A DNA stretch of 64,000 nt from Lacimicrobium sp. SS2-24 (GTDB lineage: Bacteria > Pseudomonadota > Gammaproteobacteria > Enterobacterales > Alteromonadaceae), in NCBI RefSeq assembly GCF_002201535.1, contig NZ_NIWW01000001.1:310001-374000 (forward strand). The letters run 5' to 3'. Position numbers and translations under genes: made by a program. Of this stretch, positions 11,927-24,163 are shown in pieces. Positions within the stretch are counted from its first letter, which is position 1, and every line of letters begins with the position of its first letter. The notes under the pieces were generated by a model that was not told where the DNA came from, made no database searches, and saw nothing but the letters and a program-made list of their open reading frames with translations.

Positions 11927-12946
11927 TCAGAGTCGATTAAACGCCGCAAGCGGATGGGTGGTGGTGATTCGCATGCTGACCCGCTGCCCCGGCGCCAGTT
12001 GTTGTTCATGATTCACCCGGACTCGCAGTTCAATATCCTTGTCTTCCAGTTGCACAGCATAAAAGCGTGCGCCCCCTTCATATCTGACCCACTTTATGTA
12101 GCCCTCTCCTTTTTCATCCTGATGCACACTTAAATCATCTGGACGCAACAGTAAGTCAATGTTGTCACAGGCTTCATTGATGGGAATAGCTGGAGCCTCA
12201 CCTAATGTGGTCATAGCTATTTTCTTATCTGCTGACAAACGACCTGGCAAAAAACTCGCTTCCCCGAGGAAGCGGGCAACGAAACGGTCTGAAGGCTCTG
12301 AGAAACACCGTTCTGGCGTGTCCAGTTGATGCAATCTTCCGCCTTTTAGCACGCCAATTCTGTCACCAACAGAGAGCGCCTCTTCCTGATCATGTGTCAC
12401 CCAAATTGCGGGTACGCCTGCTTTTTTTAGTGCGTCTCGTATTTCCCATCTCAGGCTGTCTTTGAGTGCAGCATCCAGATTTGACAGGGGTTCATCTAAC
12501 AGAACACATTGGGGATCGTGCGCAAGTGTACGAGCCAGCGCCACACGTTGCTTTTGCCCTCCTGACAGCGTGGCGGGCCAGGCATGGCGATGTGCATCTA
12601 ATCCCAGTAAACGTATCCAGTGTTCTGCCCGATCGCGACGTTTGAGTTTAAAATAAATGTTCTGCTCGACACTTAGATGTGGAAACAAAGCGAAATCCTG
12701 GAAAACCATTCCCAGTTGGCGCTTCTCGGGTGGAATCAGCTGTTTTGCGGTGGCGCGCCAGTTTGCTAGGGAAATCGTCCCGGCGTGTATCGGCACCAAT
12801 CCGGCAAGGACGTTTAAGATGGTCGTTTTACCGCACCCGGTGGGACCTACCAGCATCAGTATTTCGTCTTTTTCGAGGCTGAAACTGACGTCACTGACCA
12901 CCTGATGCTCGCCGTAATAAACGGCTAAATTACTAACATCTAACAT
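11927..12946 (-). CDS. fbpC: Ferric iron ABC transporter, ATP-binding protein
   Basis: A 339-residue ATPase. Motifs: Walker A GPTGCGKT (34-41), Q-loop in VFQDFALFPHL, signature LSGGQKQR (127-134), Walker B CVLLDEP, H-loop in WVTHDQEEAL, and a C-terminal TOBE-like regulatory part (about 240-339). This layout is that of FbpC/AfuC/PotA-type subunits. The assignment to iron rests on its operon partners and on the Fur box upstream of the operon. It follows the permease gene by 14 bases and is the last gene of the operon. No clear terminator follows. Confidence 0.88.
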   Translation of the reverse strand: MLDVSNLAVYYGEHQVVSDVSFSLEKDEILMLVGPTGCGKTTILNVLAGLVPIHAGTISLANWRATAKQLIPPEKRQLGMVFQDFALFPHLSVEQNIYFKLKRRDRAEHWIRLLGLDAHRHAWPATLSGGQKQRVALARTLAHDPQCVLLDEPLSNLDAALKDSLRWEIRDALKKAGVPAIWVTHDQEEALSVGDRIGVLKGGRLHQLDTPERCFSEPSDRFVARFLGEASFLPGRLSADKKIAMTTLGEAPAIPINEACDNIDLLLRPDDLSVHQDEKGEGYIKWVRYEGGARFYAVQLEDKDIELRVRVNHEQQLAPGQRVSMRITTTHPLAAFNRL

Positions 12947-12960
12947 ATGACCACCTATCC

Positions 12961-14472
12961 TTAAGGATCTGACAGTTCGATTTCGGCACGACGCTCACCC
13001 GATAGCATGAGCATGAGTATCAGCACCGACATCAGAATAAGTAACAATCCGGGTATGGCGGCATGACCAAAATAGCCGGCTTCGTATACCCGCCATAAAT
13101 ACGTGGCCAGTGTCTCAAATCCGGTAGGGCCTAACATCAGCGTTGCAGGAAGTTCACGCATTGCTTCCAAAAAAACCAGCGCAGCGCCGGCAACAATGCC
13201 GCGCACTGTCAGCGGCAGAGTAATGCGCCTGAAGGTCTCCGCTGGGCGTGCGCCAAGTAAACGAGCTGCGCTGACCAGACTCGGATCCAGACGTTCCGAG
13301 GCGGTTCTCACGGCACCGACAGCCAGCGGTAAAAAACGCAATACATAGGCGATGACAAGCAGCCCCAGCGTTTGATAAAGCCAGGGCAATTGCAAACCGA
13401 CATACACCAGTGCCGTACCCATAACAATTCCCGGCACCCCAAAGCCAAGATAGGTAATACGTTCCATTACCCTGCCGGATTTTGAGCGTATCGCAGCATG
13501 CGCTACTGGAATGGCCAGCAACACCGCGACCGCGGCGGCAAGCAACGAGGCATAAGCTGAATTAAAGGCGTATTGTAGCTCAAAGTTGCCGCTGCCCTCA
13601 CGCCACAGCCACAGGCTGAAAACGGATAAAGGTAGCATAATCGCCAGGATCAGCACCGGCAAAAAAGCACTCACCATTACCGCCCGCTGCCATCTTCCCG
13701 GCCAGAGTCGTAATGGTCGTCCGGGCATTTCTTTAGTGCCTGTCACCCTCGACTCGATAAACACTAACAGCGCGACAATACACAGTAACTGCAGTGACAA
13801 CATGGCTGCCTGGCTTAAACCAAAGGCGTTATATTCCACGTATATCACACGGGTAAAGGTGTCCACTTGCATGATGGCCGGTGTGCCAAAATCAGATAAC
13901 GCATACAGGGCAGCCAACAAGGCACCCGCTGCAATGCCCCGAGTCACTCTGGGCAGCACCACACTAAAAAGACAGCCTGGCAATGACATACCGAGTGTTC
14001 GCGCTGCATTAACCTGACTGGCATCCAGACTGCGTAATGCGCTGCGCGTGGTTAACAAGACAAAGGGATAGGTATAGAGGGTCATCACCATAACAGCACC
14101 GGGCATGCCTCTGACCGCAGGCAGCGACAGTCCCAGGGCATTGTCGATTTCACCACCAGGGCCAAACGCTGCATAGAGTGTAAAGGCACCAATATAACTA
14201 GGCATAGCCAGCGGCGCAGTCAGTAACACCAACCAGGTTTTACGCAACGGCGTTTCTACATAGGCGGTAAACAGGGCCAGAGGCACACCAATCAGTGTCG
14301 CACCCAGCGCGGTCAGTGACATCAGAGTGAGTGTGTTAATCATCACTCTGATATTATGCGGATCAAAAACTTGCGCAGACTCAGAGGCGAGCACCGCCAA
14401 CACGATAATCGGCCCTATCGCCAGTGCGGCAATCAGTGCACTGGGAAGATATGACAGGGGAATGGTCTTCAT
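12961..14472 (-). CDS. fbpB: Ferric iron ABC transporter, fused permease
   Basis: A 503-residue inner-membrane permease with about 12 helices, made of two homologous binding-protein-dependent transport domains in one chain, as in FbpB. Each half has an EAA-type loop: AARTLGMSLPGCLFSVVLPRV in the first and AARLLGARPAETFRRITLPL in the second. It would form the channel for iron brought by FbpA and driven by FbpC. Its ATG overlaps the fbpA stop by four bases (ATGA), indicating coupled translation. A thiamine or other substrate cannot be excluded from the permease alone. Confidence 0.88.
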   Translation of the reverse strand: MKTIPLSYLPSALIAALAIGPIIVLAVLASESAQVFDPHNIRVMINTLTLMSLTALGATLIGVPLALFTAYVETPLRKTWLVLLTAPLAMPSYIGAFTLYAAFGPGGEIDNALGLSLPAVRGMPGAVMVMTLYTYPFVLLTTRSALRSLDASQVNAARTLGMSLPGCLFSVVLPRVTRGIAAGALLAALYALSDFGTPAIMQVDTFTRVIYVEYNAFGLSQAAMLSLQLLCIVALLVFIESRVTGTKEMPGRPLRLWPGRWQRAVMVSAFLPVLILAIMLPLSVFSLWLWREGSGNFELQYAFNSAYASLLAAAVAVLLAIPVAHAAIRSKSGRVMERITYLGFGVPGIVMGTALVYVGLQLPWLYQTLGLLVIAYVLRFLPLAVGAVRTASERLDPSLVSAARLLGARPAETFRRITLPLTVRGIVAGAALVFLEAMRELPATLMLGPTGFETLATYLWRVYEAGYFGHAAIPGLLLILMSVLILMLMLSGERRAEIELSDP

Positions 14473-15503
14473 AACACTCCGACATCCCGCATCATATCTA
14501 AGGTAGGACGTAAATCAGCGAGTTGGGTAAGATCCAGTTTTGGCGGCGACATGCTGGATAAGCCTGGCAAACCCGCTGGCATAGAAACGCCATTGACCAG
14601 TGGAATTTCATAGGCTTCGGAGGCAAGATAAGACTGCACTTCCTGCGTTAACAGGTAACGAATAAAGTTAACTGCCGTGCTATTTTCACTCAAACATACG
14701 ATGCCGGAGGCATTAACCAGACACCCTGCATCGTTCTTCGTAAAGGCAAGTTCTATATTCGCCTGTGGTTTTCCGGCTTTAAGACGCAGACTGTAATAAT
14801 GGTTAGCTAAACCCAGGTCCACTTCTCCCCGTTCTACAGCCATTACCACGCCGAGCTCGCCGGCATAACTGGTAGAGCGAGCTTTCATTGCACTAAGCCA
14901 ATCAGCGGTCTGCTGTTCGCCGTTGAGTAAGCGCATGGCGGTCACAAACGACTGAAAAGACGCATAGGCGGGTGCCCAGCCTATAGACAGTTGGCTGTCA
15001 GCCAGTGCCATAATGCTATCAGGGATGGCACTGGCAGCAATGCGTTGTGGGTTGTACGGTAAAGTACGAATACGCCCCGTGACTGGCGCCCACTGAGGAT
15101 ACTGAAACCCTGCCTTAAGTTGCGACGTCAGTTCTGGCGGCAAGGATTTTGCCAGACCGTTTGCCGTCACCAGCCCAATGGCACCAGAATCTACTGCCCA
15201 GAACAGATCAGCCCGCCGAACACCGGCCCTGGCTTCTGCCACAAGCGTATTAGCCAGTGCAGCAGTGGCGCCCCGGCGTACACGTAAATCCAAGTCAGGG
15301 TTCCTATCTCGGATCGCATCCAGGACCTTTTCATATAACCCCCCTTCTCCCCGACCCAGGTACAGGGTCAGTTCACCGGTTAATGACGGTAGTTGCTCCA
15401 CTGAAAGGGCCATGCGCTGATCGCTCTGAAATGCGCGTGCCCAGGGCGTCGCTGTGAGAAAACTGGCAGCGGCTATACCCTGAATAAAGGATCTGCGATG
15501 CAC
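14469..15503 (-). CDS. fbpA: Iron(III) ABC transporter substrate-binding protein, Tat-type signal
   Basis: A 344-residue exported binding protein. The N-terminus HRRSFIQGIAAASFLTA has a twin-arginine followed by a hydrophobic stretch and probable cleavage after ARA (about residue 24), so Tat export is likely. The paired Tyr236-Tyr237 in NHYYSLR matches the tyrosines that bind ferric iron in FbpA/FutA proteins, which argues for iron as ligand. The start codon is GTG at 15503, directly after the TAA of the preceding gene, with AGGGA about 10 bases upstream. The gene is second in a Fur-type operon. Confidence 0.88.
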   Translation of the reverse strand: MHRRSFIQGIAAASFLTATPWARAFQSDQRMALSVEQLPSLTGELTLYLGRGEGGLYEKVLDAIRDRNPDLDLRVRRGATAALANTLVAEARAGVRRADLFWAVDSGAIGLVTANGLAKSLPPELTSQLKAGFQYPQWAPVTGRIRTLPYNPQRIAASAIPDSIMALADSQLSIGWAPAYASFQSFVTAMRLLNGEQQTADWLSAMKARSTSYAGELGVVMAVERGEVDLGLANHYYSLRLKAGKPQANIELAFTKNDAGCLVNASGIVCLSENSTAVNFIRYLLTQEVQSYLASEAYEIPLVNGVSMPAGLPGLSSMSPPKLDLTQLADLRPTLDMMRDVGVL

Positions 15504-16313
15504 TTAAAATACGTCCCTGGTGCTCTTTTCAGCCTTGTTGAGTAAGCCTTGTGCCTGATTAAGCTTGGTCTGCATCTGCGTCACAATTTGACGAATGATG
15601 GTAATGTCAGCCTGTTCTTTGAGAGCCACGGGTAAGGTCACATTGAAATCTTTTTCCAGCCCTTCTACCAGCGATGCATCCTGTTCTATGAGTTGCCCTT
15701 CCAGACCTTCAAACAGATTCAGGTAAGTGCTATGCACAATATCAATAGCCTGTTGAGGCAGTTTTTCCGCCGCTTTGGCCACAACACGGTCTAAACGGTG
15801 GTTAATTTCAGTAATGGTCTGACTGGCAGTACCCGGGCTGTTTTCCTTACCGGCTTGCGCGAGCTTACCCTGCTGCTGATATTGAGCCGCCAGCTTAACC
15901 GCACCTAACGCCTGCCACAGACTCGTTTCAAAAAGCCTTTGTTGCTGACGCACCTGTTGTAGCGCTTTACCTTTTTCTATTGCATCTTTGACACCGAATA
16001 AACCCTGCCAAATCAAGGCATAAACCGGCACATAGCTGGTTTCGATGGCGGCATGAAAATCAACGGCTTCCCAGTAATCGATCAGAACATCGGATTGCAC
16101 TCCCTGTTTGCCTTTGTCGGCATAGGTTGCAATAACCTCATCCACCTGACGGATCAGCATGTCGACTTCTTCGCTGTAGTGAGGAATATGTTGTTGCAGT
16201 TGATGGACATGCTCACCAATAGGGCCATTTGCGTAAACAGATGTCGACGCCACTGCCAGGCCCATTGCGATGCCCGCCACCATACGTTGACTGGTTTTAT
16301 AGATGCGCTGCAT
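15504..16313 (-). CDS. Exported helical protein of unknown function, first gene of iron operon
   Basis: A 269-residue protein I do not recognise. A signal peptide is visible (basic QRIYKTSQR, hydrophobic core MVAGIAMGLAVASTSV, probable cleavage after YANG or nearby). The mature protein is predicted helical and rich in Gln, Glu and Lys, with no cysteine. Its mature N-terminus is His-rich (EHVHQLQQHIPHY), and a conserved-looking segment YWEAVDFHAAIETSY lies near residues 85-100. It abuts fbpA with no gap and is the gene nearest the Fur box, so it is probably co-expressed with the ferric transporter. A periplasmic iron-handling role is inference from position and histidines only. Confidence 0.75.
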   Translation of the reverse strand: MQRIYKTSQRMVAGIAMGLAVASTSVYANGPIGEHVHQLQQHIPHYSEEVDMLIRQVDEVIATYADKGKQGVQSDVLIDYWEAVDFHAAIETSYVPVYALIWQGLFGVKDAIEKGKALQQVRQQQRLFETSLWQALGAVKLAAQYQQQGKLAQAGKENSPGTASQTITEINHRLDRVVAKAAEKLPQQAIDIVHSTYLNLFEGLEGQLIEQDASLVEGLEKDFNVTLPVALKEQADITIIRQIVTQMQTKLNQAQGLLNKAEKSTRDVF

Positions 16314-16341: not shown

Positions 16342-16360
16342 GCAAATGATACTTATTATC
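16342..16360. promoter_or_regulatory. Fur box upstream of the iron operon
   Basis: GCAAATGATACTTATTATC matches the 19-bp Fur consensus GATAATGATAATCATTATC at 15 positions. It ends 29 bp upstream of the first gene of the minus-strand iron operon, where bound Fur would cover the promoter. Confidence 0.8.
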
Positions 16361-22466: not shown

Positions 22467-23204
22467 TTAGAGATAAGTCTGAATTAGGCGATTTTGTTCT
22501 GTATCGGCAACAATGCGCACATTACAGGCAAACACTTCGCTCAGTCGAGCTTCGGTCAGTACCGCGTTAGGCACATCGTCTGCCGTGAGTTTTCCTTCGT
22601 GCATCAACCAGATGCGGTTGGCATATCGTTCAGCCAGGTTAAGCTGATGATGGCTCATGATGAGCATATTTCCCTTTCTTACCAGTTCATTGAGCAAAAT
22701 ACACAGTCGGTGTTGATGGGAAAAATCTAACCCCTGTACCGGTTCATCCAGCAAAATCAGCGCTTTTCCGTCGTCTATGGCCGGCCAGATTTGCATCAGA
22801 CAGCGGGCAATCTGTACCCGTCGTTGTTCTCCACCGGAGAGCTCATTTAGCGGACGATGCAGGAACTGCGTGATATCCAGAGCCTGTTCCAGCTCATCTG
22901 GCAGTGGGCGCGTATCGCAAAAAAAGCTCAGGCTTTCTTCTACGGTCAGCGCAAAAACACTGCGATGGGTTTGTTCCATCAGGCAGCGACAGGTTGCAAG
23001 TTCTGCCGTAGAGTAATGGTAAAGGTTTCTGCCTTCGAGCCAGATAGTGCCCTGCTGCGCAGTGATAAGCCCGGCAATCAGGTTTAACAGACTGGATTTG
23101 CCGGAACCGTTAGGACCCAGAAGATGAATCGCATCCCCTGGAACCACATCCAGGCTGACCTGTTTTATCCGTTGGGGAAGCGAGAGCCCCTCAATCCTTA
23201 ACAT
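22467..23204 (-). CDS. btuD: Vitamin B12 ABC transporter ATPase
   Basis: A 245-residue ABC ATPase with Walker A GPNGSGKS (30-37), signature LSGGEQRR (122-129), Walker B ALILLDEP and the H-loop His in IMSHH. The similarity and its coupling to a FecCD-type permease two bases upstream point to BtuD; other metal-chelate ATPases of this group are possible. It is the last of three minus-strand genes. The periplasmic partner btuF is not in this window. Confidence 0.85.
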   Translation of the reverse strand: MLRIEGLSLPQRIKQVSLDVVPGDAIHLLGPNGSGKSSLLNLIAGLITAQQGTIWLEGRNLYHYSTAELATCRCLMEQTHRSVFALTVEESLSFFCDTRPLPDELEQALDITQFLHRPLNELSGGEQRRVQIARCLMQIWPAIDDGKALILLDEPVQGLDFSHQHRLCILLNELVRKGNMLIMSHHQLNLAERYANRIWLMHEGKLTADDVPNAVLTEARLSEVFACNVRIVADTEQNRLIQTYL

Positions 23205-23206
23205 GG

Positions 23207-24163
23207 TTATCGTGCCGCCAGTTTAATCACAGAATAGAGAAATACCGGCCCACCCAGCGTCGCCGTCAGCATCGACACCGGTACGGCGACACCGCCAAAC
23301 AGATCAGAGACCAGAATGACCAGCAACATGAGTATGGCCCCCAGCAAAGCCGATGCGGGGAGAATAAAACGGTTGTCAAAACCGAATACATTGCGCAGTA
23401 AATGAGGCACCAAAAGCCCGACAAAGGCGATTGAACCTGCTAGGGATACGGCAACGCCAACTAAAAAGGCACTCACGAGCAGCATTCTGGGATAAAAGCG
23501 GACGATATCCAGGCCCGCCAATTGAGCGCTGCGTTGCCCCATATACAGCCAGTTTAACGCCCGTCCCTGAATGATCACCACGCCCAGTGCCAGGCAAACC
23601 GGCAGCAATGCCAGCAACACCAGCTGCAGGCTGGCCTGATGAAGACTGCCCAGCAACCAGAACGTCAGGTTTCTCAGTGACTGAGCATCAGAAAAGAAAT
23701 ACAGCCACGCAATAATCCCACCGCTGAGTGTAGATATCGCAATGCCAGCCAAGATCACGCCACTTCCAGACACCAGACTCAGCCGTCTTGCCAGTACATA
23801 TATCAACAGTGTCGAGAGCAGCGCGCCAATAAAACTGAACAAAGGGAGGCCGTACTCCAGTAAGACAGCGCTGAGACTGCCTCCGATGAGCAGATAAATG
23901 GCTGCAAACAGGCTTGCACCACTGCTAATACCAATGATGCCGGGGTCTGCCAGGGGGTTGCGCAGCATTACCTGTAATAAGGCCGAGCTGGTTGCCAGAC
24001 TCGCCCCCACCATCATGGCGCATAGTACCAGGGGTAAGCGCAACTGCAGCAAAATTTGCCGGTCTACCTGCTCGGAAAACTGAAGATCACGGAGCAGGAC
24101 AAAGACAGCAAGGGTAAGCAATATCAATGACAACAGACTGAGCAGTCTGGTGCGGTAAAACAT
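23207..24163 (-). CDS. btuC: Vitamin B12 ABC transporter permease
   Basis: A 318-residue inner-membrane protein of the FecCD/BtuC family with about ten helices. Typical segments are RLPLVLCAMMVGASLATSSALLQVMLRNPLADPGIIGISSGA near residues 45-85 and SIAFVGLLVPHLLR near 245. The start ATG overlaps the stop of the phosphatase gene upstream. It would carry cobalamin across the inner membrane with BtuD. Cobalamin specificity rests on similarity only, because no B12 riboswitch and no btuF are seen next to it. Confidence 0.85.
   Translation of the reverse strand: MFYRTRLLSLLSLILLTLAVFVLLRDLQFSEQVDRQILLQLRLPLVLCAMMVGASLATSSALLQVMLRNPLADPGIIGISSGASLFAAIYLLIGGSLSAVLLEYGLPLFSFIGALLSTLLIYVLARRLSLVSGSGVILAGIAISTLSGGIIAWLYFFSDAQSLRNLTFWLLGSLHQASLQLVLLALLPVCLALGVVIIQGRALNWLYMGQRSAQLAGLDIVRFYPRMLLVSAFLVGVAVSLAGSIAFVGLLVPHLLRNVFGFDNRFILPASALLGAILMLLVILVSDLFGGVAVPVSMLTATLGGPVFLYSVIKLAAR

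Follow-up and report, generated by a model that had tools for sequence, protein, structure and literature searches.

Gene Organization of the Locus

The window analyzed here is a 64,000-nt stretch of the genome of Lacimicrobium sp. SS2-24 (assembly GCF_002201535.1, contig NZ_NIWW01000001.1, positions 310,001–374,000 of the forward strand), and positions given without a locus name refer to this window. Its minus strand carries a unit of four genes, the first of which (15504–16313; hereafter X) encodes a predicted exported helical protein and is followed by genes for an FbpA-like ferric-iron-binding protein (14469–15503), an FbpB-like permease with two BPD_transp_1 stretches (12961–14472), and an FbpC-like ABC ATPase with a TOBE_2 domain (11927–12946). 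The stop codon of X abuts the GTG start of the FbpA-like gene with a gap of 0 (TTT-TAA-GTG), in agreement with an earlier sequence-only reading of this DNA, which had noted that X and fbpA adjoin without a gap. Elsewhere on the same strand, two ORFs (22467–24163) resemble a BtuD-type ATPase and a BtuC-type permease, by sequence reading only.

At E ≤ 0.001, the FbpA-like protein has 28 matches among PDB sequences, the best with E = 7.4e-47; of these, 27 have names of the iron-binding or iron-transport type, including SfuA, YfuA, HitA, and FbpA, and the last is named “Extracellular solute-binding protein, family 1.” Its NHYY pair is present in all 67 distinct related ORFs. The label “ferric” for the transporter rests on this binding protein, since none of the three transporter genes had an NCBIfam model over cut-off among the matches listed, including the permease and ATPase equivalogs, and the best NCBIfam scores went to models for phosphonate, molybdate, and further members of this superfamily. 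The FbpA-like protein has a twin-arginine type start (RRSFIQG), and RRx[FL], which we take to be the Tat motif, occurs near the start in 66 of the 67 distinct ORFs; the Pfam TAT_signal model matched the window's protein at only E 0.32. This type of FbpA seems to be exported by Tat and, as the start of X is Sec-like, the two partners would use different export routes.

A palindromic Fur-box-like site (16342–16360) lies 29 nt ahead of the start codon of X and matches what we take to be the Fur consensus at 15/19 positions on the plus strand and 14/19 on the minus strand, which agrees with the earlier placement of X nearest to a Fur box. Among the regions upstream of X homologues, 43 of 49 contain a site of at least 13/19, compared with 9.7% of 9,800 random windows from the same loci, although the 49 regions include close relatives and some of the control windows may overlap the sites. 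The remaining six regions score below 13/19, and the values for single loci are often 0.05 to 0.3.

Sequence and Predicted Structure of Protein X

Protein X consists of 269 residues, has no cysteine, and contains the segment YWEAVDFHAAIETSY, all as first reported. A hydrophobic stretch near its N-terminus is followed by SVYA|NG, in which A28 is kept in 55 of 57 aligned X sequences (this alignment includes near-copies, among them one identical pair), and residues 1–28 (16230–16313, minus strand) probably form a Sec signal peptide. The export previously claimed for X can thus be retained as a Sec-like start, read from sequence only. The description of X as histidine-rich, together with the argument built on a cluster of histidines, proved to be wrong. 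Histidine accounts for 7 of the 269 residues (2.6%), and of the four histidines at positions 35, 37, 42, and 45 only H35 is conserved (55/57), with His found at position 37 in one sequence and at position 42 in 23. The invariant histidine is H87 (57/57), located within the segment WEAVDFHAAIE.

The AlphaFold2 model of X is all-helical (mean pLDDT 81.2, pTM 0.49), in line with the helical protein expected earlier, and the predicted helices can be read as two bundles, although the placement of these bundles is unsure because of the low pTM. A Foldseek search of the model against solved structures returned nothing under E 0.58, and the family profile had no significant match among the PDB sequences. 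VIA-align retrieved common helical bundles (PsbQ, the NarX sensor, and vinculin) with Z ≤ 12.4, a value that falls under the level its own note sets for helical bundles. Structure prediction, one of the checks proposed for X, agreed with the helical character but gave a low pTM and no matching solved structure. Designed DARPin constructs were the best matches in a single-sequence phmmer search of the PDB (best E 3.6e-06, residues 69–117 of X), but these matches disappeared when the family profile was used and were probably due to chance.

Distribution of X and Linkage with FbpABC

X stays below the cut-off of every Pfam and NCBIfam model. Weak matches (YfcL, DUF948, and others) vary by member, and at E 0.1 each is confined to at most 5 of the 22 diverse members compared, so that the proposed profile search brought up no known family of unrelated function above the curated cut-offs. 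A protein search identified X homologues in 4 of 40 genomes (counting the window's own; one of the four is weak), and scanning the collection of named genomes with a sequence pattern gave 24 X loci, whose carriers include Lacimicrobium, Pleionea, Methylophaga, Thalassotalea, Halioglobus, and Kangiellaceae. When 395 genomes from the same taxonomic family were searched with the X profile, 68 gave a match, 56 of them with a full-length copy and 12 with weak matches only. Samples at the class level (369 genomes) and phylum level (299 genomes, a small sample for the groups other than Gammaproteobacteria) yielded nine and five full-length copies, respectively; there is partial overlap among the samples. 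All full-length copies found are from Gammaproteobacteria. The homologues share 29–64% identity and nearly all occupy the same genomic place; the conservation of both protein and place at this level of identity is more than chance. One of the two other sampled genomes of the same genus (G001) has neither X nor this FbpA type at the thresholds used. No printed description of the X gene was found in searches of an open-licence library, and this is weak evidence for the absence of one.

The linkage of X with genes for a ferric transporter is near-total. The FbpA gene follows X directly in 21 of the 24 named loci, and the other three (L025, L026, and L027) are orphans. A permease and an ATPase are also visible in 19 of the 21 linked loci, with the ATPase of L012 cut by the contig end; the contig ends after FbpA in L007 and L022. 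In the family sample, FbpA was detected at E ≤ 1e-60 in 55 genomes, and X lies beside it in all 55, on the same contig and strand, the matched edges being 2 to 22 nt apart; the 56th full-length copy (G344) is an orphan. FbpA also adjoins X in 9/9 full-length copies of the class-level sample and 5/5 of the phylum-level sample. The co-occurrence with fbpABC that had been put forward as a check was thus found, and relatives show the opposite of an absence of linkage to iron genes. At one locus (L023:6805-9348), the binding protein and the permease are in one frame, which is probably a frameshift in this metagenome-assembled genome (MAG) rather than a true fusion, as the binding protein appears altered at its end.

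Homology of X to the Periplasmic Module of FTR1

The X profile gave 15 weak matches in the family sample, all over the C-terminal part of X. Fourteen of these coincide with an FTR1 permease (PF03239) found independently, and the fifteenth is a 203-aa frame without one. An FTR1 set was compiled of 29 long proteins from 31 loci (including L004), with the short L058 and L059 dropped; it includes several near-identical sequences. In hhalign comparisons, X aligned with the periplasmic parts of FTR1 at P 2.2e-06 when the cytochrome c insert of the latter was kept, and at P 3.4e-10 over 183 columns, spanning both helical parts, when the insert was removed (global P 1.2e-11). The addition of eight divergent X members yielded P 2.1e-11. 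The whole-length score of 70.8 compares with maxima of 26.3 and 29.6 among 200 shuffles each of single columns and blocks of seven, and with 15.7 for the reversed profile. Taken separately, the N-terminal half scored 31.4 (shuffle maxima 18.9 and 23.8; P 4.6e-05) and the C-terminal half 49.2 (shuffle maxima 18.9 and 26.2). On these profile comparisons, both halves of X are related to the FTR1 module, the N-terminal half more weakly; the two halves of X compared with each other gave P 0.0036.

Judged by its profile, X is homologous to the FTR1 periplasmic module as a free-standing protein that lacks the cytochrome c insert (P 3.4e-10, above); FTR1 periplasmic parts had been suggested earlier for comparison. 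X is related to the long FTR1 permeases (those aligned have the cytochrome c insert) over both helical parts, has the motif spacing described below in common with them, and aligns with them as far as its C-terminal VF, just ahead of the FTR1 membrane part. In contrast to these permeases, X lacks both a membrane part and cytochrome c and is encoded next to an ABC transporter. Neither a PF03239 match nor REGLE motifs were found in X, and the CxxCH of the insert is missing from this cysteine-free protein. In 51 of the 56 family genomes that carry X, FTR1 does not pass the cut-off, and X is therefore independent of FTR1. The idea that X is an accessory of FTR1 was rejected, as FTR1 passes the cut-off in 5 of 56 genomes with X and 69 of 339 others (Fisher p 0.043, with relatedness ignored). 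Among the FTR1-type ORFs, L148, L149, and L153 have no CxxCH and carry a FEVFE variant near the start; L153 is a PF03239 match. These ORFs represent a heme-free long permease form, and in two of their genomes the X profile matches the ORF at two places.

The conserved residues common to X and FTR1 include the motif Y-x3-FE-x2-E-x14-E, which occurs with the same spacing in all 57 X and all 29 FTR1 sequences. In X it corresponds to Y197-x3-F201-E202-x2-E205-x14-E220 (15654–15725, minus strand) and is a candidate iron site. The motif was also found in 8 of 11 further long ORFs of weak matches, and among the loci collected it is carried by 137 of 641 ORFs of at least 200 aa (copies included). Of these 137, a pattern assigned 133 to X or FTR1, and the other four are read as FTR1-type (L097 and L098) and X (L013 and L033). 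Within the segment W81–E91 (16041–16073, minus strand), which aligns with EYxEMxEF of FTR1, W81, H87, and E91 are invariant (57/57) and E82 is kept in 56 of 57 sequences; E82 aligns with the second Glu of EYxEMxEF, which is present in 29/29 FTR1 sequences. The C-terminal V268-F269 (15507–15512, minus strand) is found in 54 of 57 X sequences and lies opposite the FTR1 position preceding the first membrane helix, which is F in 28 of 29 sequences and W in one.

Orphan X Genes

Four X genes are orphans, namely those of the three named loci and G344. All four lack both glycines of FEGxEG and the C-terminal VF but retain E202 and E205; G344 has D in place of E220. Each is preceded by a Fur-type site of 14/19 or 15/19. 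No FbpA was detected at E 1e-5 in two of the four orphan genomes (completeness is not stated for three of the four), and the other two have only distant matches (E 2e-21 and 9e-14). The G344 orphan (L138:6031-6840) is divergent from genes that, as named from their sequences, appear to be of suf/iscR type, and its Fur-type site is near-identical to that of the window. A tree places at least two separate losses of linkage, with well-supported branches forcing both changes. We read the losses in the orphans, four cases in two events, as suggestive of a relaxed constraint on a transporter-facing surface.

Proposed Role and Alternative Explanations

Our preferred reading, held with moderate confidence, is that X handles iron in the periplasm as a fourth subunit of an FbpABC-type ferric importer and is homologous to the FTR1 module. 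X would leave the cytoplasm via Sec, fold into two helical bundles, and bind iron through E202, E205, and E220, perhaps with the participation of E82, H87, E91, and conserved tyrosines. The subunit of FbpABC that binds Fe(III) is FbpA (PMC8891985), and X would hand over iron as Fe(III) to FbpA with its NHYY pair, after which FbpBC would import it. The VF tail, whose FTR1 counterpart connects the module to the first membrane helix, may dock X on the transporter. The sequence-only reading had already proposed an undescribed periplasmic iron helper for FbpABC. This proposal is partly supported, by the lack of an unrelated family and by the linkage, and it gains independent support from the homology of X to the FTR1 periplasmic module, but its histidine argument does not stand.

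The orphans bear on two other explanations. X could be a periplasmic iron buffer, sensor, or protective protein that is merely co-regulated with FbpABC and hands over no iron, as X persists in the four orphans with a Fur-type site (14–15/19) but no linked transporter, two of their genomes have no FbpA at E 1e-5 and two have distant ones only, and one orphan adjoins suf/iscR-type genes. Such a role is unlikely, however, as X adjoins FbpA in 55 of 55 genomes and it is precisely the orphans that have lost the tail and the two glycines, both of which suggest that X touches the transporter. The same losses could instead suggest that X serves in docking or assembly of the transporter, retaining the helical scaffold of FTR1 but binding no metal, because the tail and the FEGxEG glycines, besides acidic residues, track the presence of the transporter. 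This is distinctly less probable, given that E202, E205, H87, and E91 are invariant (57/57) and that E202 and E205 stay in the four orphans.

Two further explanations concern the kind of iron protein that X represents, and both are very improbable. EfeO/EfeM and the imelysins (M75) resemble X in being periplasmic and helical with an iron-uptake context, and the imelysins are described as having two four-helix bundles (PMC3143127; PMC9174327). For the X model, whose pTM is 0.49, EfeM (7q1g) was at Foldseek rank 17 with E 2.4 and was not among the 50 VIA-align matches listed. Against X being a divergent member of this family, which had been listed among those to be checked, there is no Pfam M75 match, and hhalign of X against five M75 sequences, drawn from eight loci, gave P 0.2. 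The motif also differs, as the X segment has HxxxE and not GxHxxE. Some bacterial FbpABC systems carry ferrisiderophores (PMC8891985), and X might accordingly bind a ferric chelate such as a siderophore or citrate, not free iron, but there is no sign of a ligand pocket in X, and its FTR1 relatives are iron permeases.

The preferred reading of X as an iron-handling subunit has a more specific form, which is possible but doubtful. X may make FbpABC an oxidase-coupled ferrous-iron importer. In this form, the FTR1 periplasmic module, separated from its permease and heme, would act both as a non-heme ferroxidase and as a metallochaperone supplying FbpA with Fe(III), its C-terminal tail being docked on FbpB at the point where FTR1 continues into the membrane. 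Ftr1p and EfeU are oxidase-dependent iron transporters (PMC9174327). If the ferroxidase reading were true, it would mean that two unrelated superfamilies of iron transport have exchanged a domain.

FbpABC and FTR1 are well known as separate bacterial iron-uptake routes, and the feature described here is an FbpABC-type transporter with what appears to be a fourth periplasmic subunit of the FTR1-module kind. The encoding of a relative of the FTR1 module together with another type of iron pump suggests that elements of two iron-uptake machineries were brought together. With the periplasmic part of one route beside the other route, the module would be a portable iron-handling unit. As X is predicted to be soluble, without heme or membrane helices, the role of the FTR1 module could be tested on the purified protein. 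The proposed role would also provide a function-based name for a gene that is nameless in Pfam and NCBIfam and recurs in several groups of Gammaproteobacteria.

Comparison with Other Iron Uptake Systems

The three downstream genes resemble those of FbpABC, SfuABC, and HitABC, and the binding protein matches ferric-binding proteins in the PDB; in contrast to these systems, the unit described here is headed by a fourth conserved periplasmic gene. No description of such a fourth subunit was found in the open-licence literature. FetP/P19, located beside the FTR1-type permease FetM, is likewise described as a periplasmic iron protein working for an importer of iron (PMC10783030). P19 differs in serving an FTR1 permease, and the searches with the X family brought up no resemblance to it. 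HbpS of Streptomyces is extracytoplasmic and is described as binding Fe(II) by D/ExxE motifs, which are named for Ftr1p too, with oxidation to Fe(III) (PMC3754957). HbpS is octameric, and its likeness to X lies in the motif only.

Two divergent members of the X family (L093 and L095) have His/Asp/Glu-rich stretches between the helical halves (DMHSDHGREESEAHG; DDHGHDEP), which are perhaps a metal-binding linker.
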